DNA of 64,000 nt, taken from positions 62,001 through 126,000 of the forward strand of contig NZ_JAOYTH010000013.1 in the NCBI RefSeq assembly GCF_025847205.1, written 5' to 3'. Each line of letters starts with the position of its first letter. Position 1 is the stretch's first letter. Both the position numbers and the translations under genes were made by a program. Positions 23,808 through 30,114 of this stretch are shown here, piece by piece. The notes under the pieces were generated by a model. That model saw only the letters and a program-made list of their open reading frames with translations, made no database searches and had not been told where the DNA came from. This DNA is from Pararhizobium sp. YC-54. GTDB lineage: Bacteria > Pseudomonadota > Alphaproteobacteria > Rhizobiales > Rhizobiaceae.

Positions 23808-24563
23808 TCAGATGAACGGACGGAGCTTTTCGTGATATCCCTCCCAGCCCGATATTTTCATCAGCCCTTCATCATCCAGAATATCGCAGCCGCGATCGGC
23901 CCAGCGGATCAGCTTGCGTTCACCGAGTTTTTTCAACGTCTTGTTGGTGTGGACAATGGAAAGCCCGAGCGTATCGGCCACATGCTGCTGGGTGATCGGA
24001 AGGGAGACACGTTCGCCTTTGAACAAACTGCTTGCCTTGGCGCGCTGAAACAGGAAAGCCAGCAGATACGCCGCCCGCTCAAGCGCCGACCGGCGCCCGA
24101 TACTCAGGAGGTTTTCATCGAGAATGCGCTCCTCCTGCGCGGCAATCCAGGTCAGATCATAGGCAAGGTCGGGGTAGTTCCGGTAAAGCGTACCGAGCTT
24201 GTCGCGTTCGAAAACGCACAGGGTCACCGGTGAAAGCGCTTCGATCGAATGCTGCATCTCGCCCATGAGGCTGCCCTGCAAACCGATCAGATCCCCCGGC
24301 ATCATGTAATTGAGGATTTGCCGGCGGCCGTCATCGAGCGTCTTGTAGCGAAAGCCCCAGCCCGAGAGTACCGTGAACAGATGGGCGCTGTGCGATCCCT
24401 CAACCAGAATCGTGGTTCCCGCATCGACTGCCAGTTCGCCGGTCTTGAAGTTTGAAACGAACTCCAGTTCATCCGGCTTGAACTCGCGGAAATGCGGCAG
24501 CGCCCGCAAAGGACATTGCTCGCACGGCGTCTGTCGGTTGTTCCGGGTCTTCGGCGCGGCCAT
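23808..24563 (-). CDS. Crp/Fnr family transcriptional regulator
   Basis: 251 aa from the ATG at 24563, which has AAAGGAA as ribosome site; the open frame extends to 24659 without support. Near the N-terminus only two cysteines are present (CEQCPLRALPHF), fewer than an FNR-type iron-sulfur cluster needs, so it is unlikely to be a classical oxygen-sensing FNR. The cyclic-nucleotide-binding-like barrel is at about 30-145 (ILVEGSHSAHLFTVLSGWGF and GDLIGLQGSLMGE). The C-terminal Crp helix-turn-helix is at about 180-230 (PITQQHVADTLGLSIVHTNK). Divergent from the SDR gene. Effector and targets are not known. Confidence 0.87.
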   Translation of the reverse strand: MAAPKTRNNRQTPCEQCPLRALPHFREFKPDELEFVSNFKTGELAVDAGTTILVEGSHSAHLFTVLSGWGFRYKTLDDGRRQILNYMMPGDLIGLQGSLMGEMQHSIEALSPVTLCVFERDKLGTLYRNYPDLAYDLTWIAAQEERILDENLLSIGRRSALERAAYLLAFLFQRAKASSLFKGERVSLPITQQHVADTLGLSIVHTNKTLKKLGERKLIRWADRGCDILDDEGLMKISGWEGYHEKLRPFI

Positions 24564-24726
24564 CGGGTTCCTTTGCGGCGATGTCTGGACGAGAAAGCAG
24601 GACTTTGAATTCTCTTGAAAATTAGTACCGGATGTTCTTTCGGCAAGGGGACGGCCCACGGCAATGGTGGACTTCTCTATCCGGCCCGCCTAGTTTTCCG
24701 TCTCAGATCATGTCCCCGAAAATGAG

Positions 24727-25602
24727 ATGGAAGCGATGAATCACCCAGCCTTTGCCAGCAACCATGTCGCCGTCGTGACCGGAGCTGCATCCGGTATCGG
24801 TCTTGCCGCCGCCCGGCGCTTTGCGGGCCTCGGCATGAATGTCGTTCTCGCCGATCTGCCGGGCGAGCGATTGGACAAGGCAGCTGAGGAAACAGCCGCC
24901 ATTTCCCCACATGGTCCCAGCAGCGTGATCGCAATCGCGGCTGACGTATCGAGCACCGATTCGCTAACGGCTCTGGAAGCTGGAGCAATCGCGCGGTTTG
25001 GCCGCGTGCATGTGTTGATGAACAATGCCGGTATCCAGCCCGGCAGCTCGATGTTCTCAGCGCAGGATGCGTGGGAAAAGGTCTTCGCCGTCAATCTCTG
25101 GGGCGTCATCAACGGCTCCCGCATCTTTGCGCCGGCGATGATCGCCCACGGTCAGACCGGGCTGATCATCAATACCGGCTCCAAGCAGGGCATCACCACA
25201 CCACCCGGCGATCCCGCCTACAATGTGACCAAGGCAGGCGTCAAAGCCTTTACCGAGGCCCTGCAGCACGAGCTGCGCAACACCCCCGGCTGCAACATCA
25301 CCGCGCATCTGCTGATCCCAGGCTTCGTCTATACAGGGCTGACCGCAAACGGCCGGACCGAAAAACCGGCGGCTGCCTGGACCTCTCAGGAAACCGTCGA
25401 TTTCATGATGCAGAGCCTTAAAGGCGGCGATTTCTACATCCTGTGCCCGGACAACGACGTCGCGCGTCCGACCGATGAAAAACGCATTCTCTGGGCAGCC
25501 GGCGATATCATCGAGAACCGCCCGCCCTTGTCACGCTGGCATCCCGACCACGCCGACGCATTCAAGGCGTTTTTGACGAAAGACCGGCCGAAGATCCGCT
25601 AA
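24727..25602 (+). CDS. Short-chain dehydrogenase/reductase (SDR)
   Basis: Classical SDR of 291 aa. The cofactor motif is TGAASGIGLAAA (about 19-30). The NNAG motif is in VLMNNAGIQPGS (about 100). The catalytic Ser lies in INTGSKQGITTPPG, and the Tyr-x3-Lys pair is in AYNVTKAG (about 162-166). The Asp after beta-2 (LADLPGERL) suggests NAD preference. The C-terminus is longer than usual (FYILCPDNDVARPTDEKRILWAAGD), a feature of a subgroup annotated only as SDR oxidoreductase. The start could also be the ATG at 24736, which has GGAAG close upstream. Divergent from the Crp-type regulator, which is a candidate controller. Substrate unknown. Confidence 0.88.
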   Translation: MEAMNHPAFASNHVAVVTGAASGIGLAAARRFAGLGMNVVLADLPGERLDKAAEETAAISPHGPSSVIAIAADVSSTDSLTALEAGAIARFGRVHVLMNNAGIQPGSSMFSAQDAWEKVFAVNLWGVINGSRIFAPAMIAHGQTGLIINTGSKQGITTPPGDPAYNVTKAGVKAFTEALQHELRNTPGCNITAHLLIPGFVYTGLTANGRTEKPAAAWTSQETVDFMMQSLKGGDFYILCPDNDVARPTDEKRILWAAGDIIENRPPLSRWHPDHADAFKAFLTKDRPKIR

Positions 25603-25721: not shown

Positions 25722-27278
25722 ATGACGAGCGGCATCCACCACATCACCCTGATCACCCGCAAGGTGCAGCCCAATGTCGATTTCTATGCCGGCTTTCTCG
25801 GCCTGCGCCTCGTCAAGCGGACGGCGGGTTTCGAAGATGAAGCCCAGCTGCATCTGTTCTACGGCGATGCTGCCGGCTCGCCGGGATCGCTGGTGTCGTT
25901 CCTCGTCTGGGAAGACGGTGCGCCCGGCCGCGTCGGCCACGGCCAGCCGAGCGAGATCGCCTTTGCCATTGCGCCTGACAGCATCGGCTTCTGGCTGACC
26001 CGGGCTCTCAGGTACAATGTAACGGCAACCGGCCCGACGCATGAATTCGGCGAGCCGGTCATTCGGCTGAAGGACCCGGATGGCGTCATCGTCAAGCTTG
26101 TCGGCACCGGGGCCGTGACAGCCCCTGCTCTCTATTCAACCCCCGATATCCCGCAGGAAGACGCGATCCGGCGGCTGCGCGGCGCAACGATCCTGACGGC
26201 CACGCCCGATGGCACCGCCGCCTTCGTCATCAGGCATTTCGGCTATGCCGAGGCAGACAGGACGGATGCGATCCGGCGCCTCGTATCGGCCTCCGGCGAT
26301 ATCATCGATGTCCGCGACGCCGGCGGCTTCTGGACGGCAGCGCCCGGCACCGGCACCATCGACCATATTGCCTTCCGCGCCACGAGCAAGGCGGCGGTCA
26401 ACGATGTCCGCATGCAGCTCGAGGCGGAAGATGCCGGTCAGATCAATGCCCATGACCGCAAGTATTTCTATTCGCTCTATGTCCGCGAGCCGGGCGGGAC
26501 GCTGTTCGAATTCGCCACCGATGCGCCGGGCATGACGGTGGACGAGAGCCCGGAAACAATCGGGACGAAACTGTTCGTGCCCGAGCATTTCGGCGGAAAC
26601 CTCGAAGACAATCTCGTCATGCTGCCGCAATTCGCGCTGCCCGGCGAGGAGCGTTTCACGCAGCGCGACCTGCCGTTCATTCATCGCCTGCATCAGGCGG
26701 ACAATCCCGACGGCAGCACCTTGGTGCTTCTGCACGGCAGCGGCGCCAATGAAACCAGCCTGCTGCCGCTTGGCCGTCAGATCGCCCCGAACGCGCTGCT
26801 CTTGAGCCTGAGGGGCCGCAGCACCGAGGAAGGCCACCCGCGCTTCTTCCGCAGGATCACGCCGTTCACCTTCGACCAGAAGGATATTGCCTCGGAGGCC
26901 GAAGCCTTCGTCGCGATGATCGAGGGGGCTGTGTCAGCCTATGGCCTCGACCGCGAAAAGATGATTTTCGTCGGCTATTCCAACGGCGCCAACATGCTGA
27001 TCGCAACCATGCTGCTGCATCCGGGAGTGATCCGGAAGGCCGCGCTGCTGCGGATGATGAACCCTTTGGATACGGTGCCGGAAGCCGATCTTTCCGGCAC
27101 GGAAATCCTGACGGTGACGGGAAAGACCGACGGTTACTCCCGCTACGCTCCACCGCTGCAGGCCGTCTTGCGCAACGCGGGGGCGACACTCGCGACCGTC
27201 ACGCTGAATGCCGGCCACGAGATCGGCAGGATGGACGCAGAGGCCGTCCGGGAATGGTTGAAAACAAGCGAGGGCTGA
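25722..27278 (+). CDS. Fused VOC ring-cleaving dioxygenase-like and alpha/beta hydrolase protein (MhqO-MhqD type)
   Basis: 518-residue protein made of two parts that are usually separate. Residues 1 to about 305 contain two vicinal-oxygen-chelate units (MTSGIHHITLITRKVQPNVDF at the start; a second unit around GTIDHIAFRATSKAAVNDVR), as in MhqO/glyoxalase-type dioxygenases. Metal-ligand candidates are His in GIHHIT and DHIAF, and Glu in GTLFEFATD. From about 325 comes a carboxylesterase/phospholipase-like hydrolase. Its oxyanion segment is VLLHGSGANE, the nucleophile elbow GYSNGAN (about 427), the Asp GKTDGYSRY and the His GHEIG. In Bacillus, separate MhqO and MhqD proteins are induced by hydroquinones and quinones. 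Here one chain would hold both steps. Next to a flavin reductase and a second MhqO. Confidence 0.85.
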   Translation: MTSGIHHITLITRKVQPNVDFYAGFLGLRLVKRTAGFEDEAQLHLFYGDAAGSPGSLVSFLVWEDGAPGRVGHGQPSEIAFAIAPDSIGFWLTRALRYNVTATGPTHEFGEPVIRLKDPDGVIVKLVGTGAVTAPALYSTPDIPQEDAIRRLRGATILTATPDGTAAFVIRHFGYAEADRTDAIRRLVSASGDIIDVRDAGGFWTAAPGTGTIDHIAFRATSKAAVNDVRMQLEAEDAGQINAHDRKYFYSLYVREPGGTLFEFATDAPGMTVDESPETIGTKLFVPEHFGGNLEDNLVMLPQFALPGEERFTQRDLPFIHRLHQADNPDGSTLVLLHGSGANETSLLPLGRQIAPNALLLSLRGRSTEEGHPRFFRRITPFTFDQKDIASEAEAFVAMIEGAVSAYGLDREKMIFVGYSNGANMLIATMLLHPGVIRKAALLRMMNPLDTVPEADLSGTEILTVTGKTDGYSRYAPPLQAVLRNAGATLATVTLNAGHEIGRMDAEAVREWLKTSEG

Positions 27279-27549: not shown

Positions 27550-28107
27550 CTAGGCCGATTTTCCAGCCACATAGTCTGCAAAGGCCTCGACGAAGCTCTT
27601 CAGCCTTACCTTGGCCTCTTCGTCGATCAGCTGCCCGTCCTTGTCGAACAGCGAAGCCGCTTTCGGCAGCATCAGCCGCTTGCCGGACCAGAGGTCGGCG
27701 CCGAGCGTGCGCAGCACGGACAGCCAGGCATTCTGGCTGAGCAATGTCCCGAAAGGTCCCGGCGAGGTGCCGGCAATGGCAAAGGCACGTCCGGCAAAGA
27801 CGTTCGGTGCGCCGGTCATCGACGAACTCACCCAGTCGATGGCGTTCTTGAAGACGCCCGGTATCGAATTGTTGTATTCCGGCGTGAACAGGATGACGCC
27901 ATCGGCAGCGGCGATCTGGTCCTTCAGCAGCTGCACGGCCTCCGGCACGCCTTCCCGCTCAACATCGGCGTTGTAGAGCGGAATGCCCTCGATGGTGCCC
28001 GAAGTGAACGTCACACCCTCAGGCGCAAGCCCAAGGGCTGTTTTCAGAAGCGCGGTGTTGAACGACGCCTTGCGCAGGCTTCCGGAAATGCCGATCAGTT
28101 TTGTCAT
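27550..28107 (-). CDS. NADPH-dependent FMN reductase / quinone reductase (ChrR-like)
   Basis: Flavodoxin-fold reductase of 185 aa. The start is the ATG at 28107, with AAGGGA 9 bp upstream; an ATG two codons earlier is equally in frame. The FMN phosphate loop is SGSLRKASFN (about 8-17). The flavin ring contact is TPEYNNSIPGVFKNAIDW (about 75-92), the hallmark shared with ChrR/YieF and related quinone reductases. Expected role: two-electron reduction of quinones, which avoids semiquinones, or supply of reduced flavin. It is transcribed towards the fusion gene. The terminator of the upstream mhqO-like gene means it needs its own promoter. Function in quinone defence is inferred from neighbours. 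Confidence 0.88.
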   Translation of the reverse strand: MTKLIGISGSLRKASFNTALLKTALGLAPEGVTFTSGTIEGIPLYNADVEREGVPEAVQLLKDQIAAADGVILFTPEYNNSIPGVFKNAIDWVSSSMTGAPNVFAGRAFAIAGTSPGPFGTLLSQNAWLSVLRTLGADLWSGKRLMLPKAASLFDKDGQLIDEEAKVRLKSFVEAFADYVAGKSA

Positions 28108-28164
28108 TCGCATGAATCCCTTTTGCTTTGCTGGAAGCATGCTGCGAAATACGGAAAAGTACAG

Positions 28165-28193
28165 ACAAAAAGCCGGGAGTTGTGCTCCCGGCC
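28165..28193 (-). terminator. Intrinsic terminator of the MhqO-like gene
   Basis: Minus-strand stem GCCGGGAG/CTCCCGGC with a five-base loop (28172-28192), followed directly by TTTTT. It begins 13 bp past the stop of the dioxygenase gene. Textbook Rho-independent form. Confidence 0.88.
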
Positions 28194-28205
28194 TGGTTTC
28201 ACCGT

Positions 28206-29159
28206 TTAGACCAGCGGCTTCAGCCGTGCCTCGATCTGGACGCGCTTGTGCTCCAGGAACGGCGGCAGCGACAGGCCTTCGCCGAGCGTTTCCATCGACT
28301 CGTCCACGGCAAAGCCGGGGCCGTCGGTGGCGATCTCGAACAGGATGCCGTTCGGCTCGCGGAAATAGAGCGAGCGGAAATAGAACCGCTCGACCTCGCC
28401 GCTCGACGGCAGGCGGAAGTCCTGCAGACGTTCGGTCCATGCGTGCAGCGCGGCTTCATCCGGTGCGCGGAACGCGACGTGATGGACAGCGCCTGCACCT
28501 TGCCGGGCAGCCGGCAGACCGGGTTGAACCGCAACATGCAGTTCGGCGGCCGGGCCACCTTCACCCATCGAGAACACATGCACCTCGCCGTCGCCATCCG
28601 GCGACGGGTACTGGCGCTGCCTTGTCATGTTCATCACCTGCTCCAGAACCGATTGCGTATTGGTGATATCCGGAACGCTCATGGTGATCGGACCGAGCCC
28701 CTTGATCTGATGTTCGGCCGGAACCGGGCTGCGATCCCACGGATGCGAGGGTGCAAGCCCGCCATCATCGATCAGCCGGAAACGCTGGCCTTCGCCATCT
28801 TCGAAATCAAGCGATAGGCGGCCGTCGATCTCGATGACATCGCCGGACGTGATGTTCAGCTCGCCGAACCGGGCCTTCCACCATTCGATGCTCTCAGGAC
28901 TGCCGACGCGAAGCCCGGTGCGCGAAACGCTATGGGTGCCACGGGTCTCCCGGTTCACCGGCCAGTCGAAAAAGGTCAGGTCGGTGCCCGGCGTTGCCTC
29001 GCCGTCGGCGTAGAACAGGTGATAGGCGGTGGTGTCGTCCTGGTTGACGGTCTTCTTGACCAGCCGCATGCCGAGGATCTGCGTGTAGAAACGCAGGTTT
29101 TCCCTGGCATTCGCAGTGATCGCCGTCAGATGATGAATTCCTGTCAGTTGCAAGCTCAT
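28206..29159 (-). CDS. VOC ring-cleaving dioxygenase (MhqO-like)
   Basis: 317 aa from the ATG at 29159, which has a GGAGGC ribosome site; the frame stays open to 29327 without support. Two VOC units: [22 protein letters not shown] at the start and a second around [17 protein letters not shown] (about 205). Metal-ligand candidates are His in GIHHLT, His in VHHVAF and Glu in [14 protein letters not shown] (about 270). It ends [19 protein letters not shown], the typical MhqO/PcpA-like tail. It is similar in plan to the first half of the fusion protein at 25722 but is a separate gene with its own operator palindrome (29237-29255) and terminator. Likely substrate: hydroquinone-type aromatics, by family. 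Confidence 0.9.
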
Positions 29160-29331: not shown

Positions 29332-30114
29332 TCAGGCGCGGCGTATCAGATCGGTGATATAGGTGTTTTCGGTTTTCGAAACCTGGAAATCGGCAGGATC
29401 AAGCGACACGATCATCAGCGCCTCACCATGGGACGCAGCGCTTGCCAGAAGGCTGCCGTCCGGAGCCGCCACGCGCGACGATCCGGCGAAGGTGAAGCGC
29501 TCGTCGGCACCGCAATGATTGATGTAGGCGACGAAGACCTGGTTCTCGAAGGCCCGTGTCCGGATCATGTGATCGGCGATGAACGTGCCGGAATAGCCGG
29601 CCGGCAACGCCGTCGGCACCAGCACGGCATCGGCGCCTGCCAAAGCCAGTCGCCGGACGTTTTCCGGAAACTCGACGTCGTAGCAGATCAGCATGCCGCA
29701 TCTGACGCCGCGATGGTCAAACAGCACGGTGCTCGGCTCGGCGGCCGCAAACAACGCCCGCTCATAATCGCCATAGAGATTGGACTTGCGGTAAACGACA
29801 GGGGCAGCAGGGCCATCGACATAAACCGCGCTGTTGAAAATGGTTCCATCCGCCTTTTCGGCGAAACCGGCAATGATCGCGATACCAGTTTCCGCAGAAA
29901 TCGCCTGCAGCCGCGTCACCAGCGGACCATCTGCCGGCTCCGCCAGGTCGCGGATGACATCGCCGGCGCCGTAGCCGGTAAGCCCGAGCTCGGGCATGAC
30001 AAGCAGGCTTGCGCCCGTGGCTGCCGCCTCCTTCGCCGCCTGCTCGATGCGTGCAAGGTTGGCGGCGACGTCGCCGCTTTTCGATTTCATCTGCAGGGCG
30101 GCGAGCGTGATCAT
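29332..30114 (-). CDS. Carbon-nitrogen hydrolase (nitrilase superfamily)
   Basis: 260-residue amidohydrolase. The catalytic triad is visible: Glu42 ([11 protein letters not shown]), Lys110 ([12 protein letters not shown]) and Cys144 ([12 protein letters not shown]). The length and motifs fit branches that cleave amides or N-carbamoyl groups rather than true nitriles. It is the last gene of a five-gene ABC operon of polyamine type and overlaps the permease stop by 4 bp. It therefore probably hydrolyses the imported compound or a product of it, such as an amide or carbamoyl-amine. A short inverted repeat (29281-29309) follows the stop but lacks a good T-tract. Substrate not decided. Confidence 0.87.

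Follow-up and report, generated by a model that had tools for sequence, protein, structure and literature searches.

A single-chain VOC dioxygenase–alpha/beta hydrolase gene in Pararhizobium sp. YC-54 and its relatives

The ring-cleaving dioxygenases MhqO of B. subtilis and MhqE of S. aureus carry no attached hydrolase, and MhqD, a carboxylesterase/phospholipase, is encoded by a separate gene. A locus of Pararhizobium sp. YC-54 raises the question of whether the two enzyme types can be carried on one chain, and, if so, what such a chain would do. In the window, i.e. the whole stretch of 64,000 nucleotides that was analysed, positions 25722-27278 of the plus strand form one open reading frame (ORF) of 518 codons, open from its ATG; none of 2000 mononucleotide shuffles of this ORF remained open. 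The initial annotation had proposed that an MhqO-like and an MhqD-like part, both with intact catalytic sets, share this single 518-residue chain, and matches to both families bear out the frame, the folds and the ancestry. The features of the gene are given below, in which the residue counts refer to 277 rows, i.e. the distinct full-length proteins of at least 495 aa from the first two homologue searches and 80 named loci, with identical sequences merged.

25722..27278, + strand: fused VOC dioxygenase–alpha/beta hydrolase gene, 518 aa, from the ORF, matches to relatives of solved structure and alignment
25722..26633, + strand: N-terminal dioxygenase half, residues 1-304 (putative border), two VOC modules of MhqO/PcpA type
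25740..25742, + strand: His7 codon, predicted Fe(II) ligand (MhqO His11, PcpA His11), 276/277 rows
26361..26363, + strand: Asp214 codon, at the place of PcpA His226 and MhqO His217, marking the fused clade, Asp in 276/277 rows
26364..26366, + strand: His215 codon, predicted Fe(II) ligand (MhqO His218, PcpA His227), 276/277 rows
26508..26510, + strand: Glu263 codon, predicted Fe(II) ligand (MhqO Glu266, PcpA Glu276), 276/277 rows
26634..26663, + strand: linker ALPGEERFTQ, residues 305-314 (putative borders), constant length in relatives
26664..27275, + strand: C-terminal serine alpha/beta hydrolase half, residues 315-518, matching 3b5e, below the NCBIfam MhqD cut-off
26979..26981, + strand: Ser420 codon, predicted nucleophile (GYSNG), 276/277 rows
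27129..27131, + strand: Asp470 codon, predicted triad acid, 276/277 rows
27216..27218, + strand: His499 codon, predicted triad base, 274/277 rows (two gaps, one Pro)

Two enzyme families in one reading frame

A domain search of each half, as proposed in the initial annotation, matched the N-terminal half to B. subtilis MhqO (3oaj; residues 2-312, E 6.9e-51) and to PcpA, the 2,6-dichloro-p-hydroquinone 1,2-dioxygenase (4huz; residues 4-291, E 2.4e-26), and Pfam Glyoxalase scored above its cut-off at residues 4-124. According to one study (PMC12673573), the metal ligands of MhqO in 3OAJ are His11, His218 and Glu266, and these align with His7, His215 and Glu263 of the fused protein, which has the two VOC modules and the His/His/Glu ligand set of the MhqO/PcpA family. 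The ligands of PcpA, a member of the same family, i.e. His11, His227 and Glu276, as well as its His10, Thr13 and Tyr266, are also kept in the fused protein; PcpA Arg259, which the alignment placed opposite a gap, probably corresponds to Arg246 if that gap is shifted. Residues His6, Thr9, Arg246 and Tyr253 are each kept in 276/277 rows.

The closest solved relative of the C-terminal half is M. loti Mll8374 (3b5e; residues 315-513, E 4.4e-47), and residues 312-513 matched the carboxylesterase 2h1i (E 2.6e-28). With MhqD (NF047577; 2h1i) this half has in common the alpha/beta hydrolase fold, the GYSNG nucleophile motif and the Ser-Asp-His set, here Ser420-Asp470-His499 as assigned by homology. 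It scored 106.5 bits with the NCBIfam MhqD equivalog (NF047577) against a curated cut-off of 325, and 21.5 with Pfam Abhydrolase_2, just under the cut-off of 23. The labels MhqO-type and MhqD-type of the initial annotation hold as statements of fold and ancestry, but the hydrolase half is not an MhqD equivalog. Its claim that both catalytic sets are intact agrees with the retention of the metal ligands and the triad in 274-276 of the 277 relatives. The single row without H7, H215, E263, S420 and D470 is most likely that of Rhizobium sp. RCAM05350 (L094), whose fused gene is interrupted at codon 107 by a stop in the assembly.

A single polypeptide would thus combine two active enzymes that work one after the other. 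As a member of the MhqO/PcpA (p-hydroquinone 1,2-dioxygenase) family of Fe(II) extradiol-type enzymes, the N-terminal half would open the ring of an aromatic diol, and the C-terminal half, a Ser-Asp-His alpha/beta hydrolase, would cleave the ring-opened product or its ester; both sites would be active in this order, and the substrate would belong to the quinols or the lignin-type diphenols. We judge it reasonably probable from the sequence comparisons that an aromatic diol is ring-opened and then hydrolysed on one chain, and favour this reading because of published induction data and a proposal for MhqD. According to PMC6798810, mhqE and mhqD of S. aureus are strongly induced by methylhydroquinone; according to PMC12673573, the mhq genes of Paenibacillus are induced by DDVA, and MhqD of this organism is proposed to be a C-C hydrolase. 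Furthermore, the matches to relatives of solved structure span most of each half, both catalytic sets are retained, and purifying selection acts on the dioxygenase half, with dN/dS of 0.09-0.16 against five relatives for residues 1-304 (0.12-0.31 for residues 315-518). The gene order shared with unfused pairs, one of them in this genome, and the FMN reductase and second mhqO near many fused copies (see below) also speak for it. Counting against a reaction in series are the change from His to Asp at the 226 site, the closer grouping of the hydrolase half with free hydrolases than with paired MhqD, and the absence of all six sought neighbours from 31 of the best 80 of 386 loci (see below). In addition, PMC12673573 reports no activity of purified MhqO from Paenibacillus on hydroxy-DDVA, dihydroxy-DDVA, protocatechuate or catechol, and therefore even the substrate of free MhqO is unproven.

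Asp214 at the place of a second-shell histidine

Position 214 is Asp in all 149 fused rows, which include some identical or near-identical sequences, whereas it is His in 21/21 unfused rows, in MhqO (217) and in PcpA (226); seven further unfused dioxygenases also have His at the 226 site. The fused proteins, with Asp214 instead, thus depart from the conserved second-shell His of the MhqO/PcpA family. Four other residues, G36, E38, L43 and L61, are fixed in 149/149 fused rows, and another residue is found at these positions in most or all unfused proteins. A mutational study of PcpA reportedly showed that His226, His10, Thr13 and Arg259 matter, and we take the position of Asp214 to be that of this catalytically important His226. 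As the change from His to Asp is clade-wide, hydroquinone turnover by the fused protein cannot be assumed, and it is mainly because of Asp214 that we avoid the plain label of hydroquinone dioxygenase.

The exchange argues for an altered specificity of the fused dioxygenases; most likely, the replacement of His by Asp beside the second metal His would have changed the handling of the substrate or of protons. The fused proteins may even form a distinct subfamily, in which Asp in place of the catalytic second-shell His would confer a new ring-cleavage specificity and the unstable product would be passed to the attached hydrolase, a possibility that we put forward tentatively and that falls short of being probable. 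An alternative is that the dioxygenase chemistry has been lost or changed, so that the metal site stays, Asp214 turns the reaction into that of an isomerase or lyase or into hydrolysis, and most of the work falls to the hydrolase. The strict distribution of Asp and His between fused and unfused rows, the presence of Asp in 276/277 rows, the fixed changes at 36, 38, 43 and 61 and the reported catalytic role of PcpA His226 would all fit such a loss or change; nevertheless, we consider it unlikely, as the dioxygenase half evolves under purifying selection and retains the three metal ligands together with H6, T9, R246 and Y253 in all but one of the 277 rows.

Free dioxygenases of the Asp type were sought among the 30 proteins shorter than 440 aa (of 241 from the first two homologue searches), and none was convincing; the ends of these 30 proteins break off or diverge from the family, as judged by eye over the last 70 residues. 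On the other hand, a strict pairing of fusion with Asp is weakened by a fusion in Deinococcus radiophilus, described below, which retains His at the 226 site.

Spread, origin and joint of the fused form

The initial annotation had suggested a survey of how common the fused form is, and it proved to be common in relatives. In a protein search, the 7997 candidates sharing most words with the query were scored, giving 1883 matches; the 120 matches listed and the query have 507-540 aa, and the names among the matches listed include Pararhizobium, Rhizobium, Ensifer/Sinorhizobium, Shinella, Mycoplana, Phyllobacterium and Aminobacter. A half-length query added forms of ~505 aa in Paracoccus, Albidovulum, Litoreibacter, Ochrobactrum and Pseudochrobactrum. 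Whole fused frames, with partial and broken copies excluded, were found in 41/151 genomes of the family, 32/397 of the order, 2/385 of the class and 13/398 of the phylum, Pararhizobium sp. YC-54 being included each time and the four surveys having overlapping genomes and differing E-value limits. Rhizobiaceae carry the fused form widely, and it is also present in some Rhodobacter-type and other alphaproteobacteria; the idea that the fusion is a peculiarity of one genome was dismissed in view of the matches in many relatives. In the records the protein bears names such as 'VOC family protein', 'phospholipase/carboxylesterase', 'glyoxalase' and 'ring-cleaving dioxygenase'. We found no description of it in the literature as covered by titles and the starts of abstracts, most subscription journals lying outside this coverage, and the main text of a gene-fusion survey (PMC4921024) has no mention of dioxygenase, glyoxalase, carboxylesterase or ring-cleaving.

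Some copies deviate from the whole frame. Split, shortened or interrupted fused copies were seen at L067 (genome G033, where the gene is split between two frames), L094, L032 (G219) and L036 (G484), and reflect either decay or assembly error. A 360-aa fragment of the fused family (P0141) stands under a Salmonella Typhi label in a public source, probably because of a misassigned contig. What had been flagged as internal stops in two genomes of the order survey (G717 and G803) is the normal gene end. The same survey gave 16 genomes with a weaker match (33-42% identity) that spans one or two stops; the fused gene is also present in two of the 16, and the three loci that were opened (L033-L035) are unfused pairs.

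Unfused mhqO-mhqD pairs consist of the same two families, adjacent and in the same order, dioxygenase before hydrolase, as in the fused gene; unlike the latter, they encode two proteins, and those read have His at the 226 site. The genome of Pararhizobium sp. YC-54 itself holds such a pair (L002), its two genes being 12 bases apart. It also has two mhqO genes that stand alone: L003, which lies in the window, and L004, which adjoins a gene that by its look resembles isochorismatase. Plasmids of Meiothermus, Roseomonas and Bacillus also carry annotated pairs, and a VOC-type gene immediately precedes an alpha/beta hydrolase gene in Deinococcus gobiensis and Pararhizobium sp. A13. At L027 (G073) and L032 the fused gene closely follows an unfused mhqD-type hydrolase gene of the same orientation, which at L027 is itself preceded by part of an mhqO-type match. 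Three unannotated records labelled as Listeria/Enterococcus phage (OR846870, OR848203 and OR846677) contain an mhqO-mhqD-like stretch of ~29% identity, possibly host DNA.

In quickly built trees, with SH-aLRT as the support measure, all 49 fused rows of the dioxygenase tree fall in a single long-branched clade (SH-aLRT 100), inside a group (SH-aLRT 92) that also contains the L033-type pairs. The hydrolase tree unites the fused rows with the free Mll8374-type hydrolases in a clade (SH-aLRT 100) that is also long-branched and separate from the paired MhqD rows, and the free hydrolases form a clade of their own (SH-aLRT 99) inside it. No dioxygenase match was found near the free Mll8374-type hydrolases at any of 20 loci of 8 kb each. 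These are L068-L087, of which one representative has by eye a signal-peptide-like start. From the trees and these loci, a single fusion event from a gene pair is probable in the alphaproteobacteria; the free hydrolases, which differ from the fused half in having no dioxygenase on the same chain, would be either its source or its offspring.

The grouping with free hydrolases, apart from paired MhqD, and the 0/20 loci also lend themselves to an explanation in which the halves do not act in sequence: the fusion would fix stoichiometry or stability, and the hydrolase would have another substrate, as the free Mll8374-type enzymes may have. This we think distinctly improbable, since the same two families adjoin each other in other phyla and in other alphaproteobacteria.

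Another dioxygenase–hydrolase fusion, with His at the 226 site, is located on plasmid pRadio2 of D. radiophilus (L183:2486-4032), where the annotated ORF (L183:2989-4032) covers the second VOC module and the hydrolase, whereas the assembly has the front of the gene in a different frame. Over its hydrolase part, this fusion shares 79% identity with a free hydrolase of D. proteolyticus and 62% with the free one of D. gobiensis. A tree of the second module places it beside the fused clade (SH-aLRT 93), and the hydrolase tree, from which the D. proteolyticus and D. gobiensis hydrolases were left out, at the base of the fused-plus-free group (SH-aLRT 98). We lean towards a separate event in D. radiophilus, the alternative being one old shared fusion with later loss.

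Across the joint between the halves, the spacing from L301 to H321 is 21 residues in 276/277 rows, and P302, F304 and P307 are invariant in a 60-row alignment (A1) of fused relatives. Mean column identity is 0.73 for residues 300-314 and 0.68 for 305-314 versus 0.73 for 1-290, with 0.44 for 291-299 and 0.66 for the hydrolase; dN/dS of the 36 residues round the joint is 0.06-0.47 in four relatives and not computable in a fifth. That a missed stop or start leads to two proteins from 25722-27278 is hardly credible: residue 300 is Met in Pararhizobium sp. YC-54, but in only 84/277 rows, the joint has a constant length in all rows but one, and no ribosome site is visible by eye 5' of the in-frame starts at residues 271, 273, 286, 300, 334 and 335. 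An unrecognised start near residue 310, named in the initial annotation as a way in which the domains might be separated, is likewise unsupported and was dismissed, the relatives having no conserved internal start. Two Meiothermus VOC tails resemble the start of the linker, and therefore the linker looks like the dioxygenase's own tail attached to the hydrolase. Most likely, an mhqO-mhqD-type pair would have been joined directly in this way, and the fused line would then have spread in Rhizobiaceae and some other alphaproteobacteria.

Neighbourhood and significance of the fused gene

Four neighbours in the window were scanned for domains:

23808..24659, - strand: Crp/Fnr-type regulator gene, divergent from the SDR gene (domain scan)
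24727..25602, + strand: SDR oxidoreductase gene, upstream, 119 bases from the fused gene (domain scan)
27550..28113, - strand: 187-aa gene of the NAD(P)H-dependent FMN reductase type, neighbouring and convergent (Pfam FMN_red)
28206..29159, - strand: second mhqO-type dioxygenase gene, of 317 aa and not fused, with His at the 226 site (domain scan, alignment)

On the minus strand (27550-29159) the second mhqO is followed by the FMN reductase-type gene, both convergent with the fused gene. The FMN_red gene supplies the flavin/nitro-reductase near the dioxygenase that is typical of mhqNOD-type loci. A MarR-type regulator, as in mhqRED, is absent among the four scanned neighbours and among the 12 genes annotated in the S. 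meliloti region, where, on pSymB, the SDR counterpart and the fused gene overlap by 4 bases.

Neighbours were further sought within 6 kb at the 80 named loci, some flanks being cut by contig ends; these loci lean to close relatives, because they are the best 80 of 386. Among these best 80, the FMN reductase was found at 40, the second mhqO at 39, the SDR at 36, the Crp/Fnr regulator at 28, a response regulator at 28 and a counterpart of the window gene 29332-30114 at 26, and none of the six at the 31 loci mentioned above. A cluster of Rhizobium species has different neighbours round the fused gene, and a copy in Leisingera is surrounded by pirin and isochorismatase-type genes. The second mhqO and the flavin reductase, nearby at about half of the best 80 loci, fit a role in quinone or aromatic detoxification.

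MhqO and MhqD are widespread, and both their substrates and the reason for their co-occurrence are unsettled. The natural single-chain form, from which any benefit of handing over the ring-opened product would arise on one molecule, makes this question testable with one protein and one substrate screen, in which each site can be mutated separately. Furthermore, the clade-wide Asp offers a clean residue swap for the role of the second-shell His in p-hydroquinone dioxygenases.
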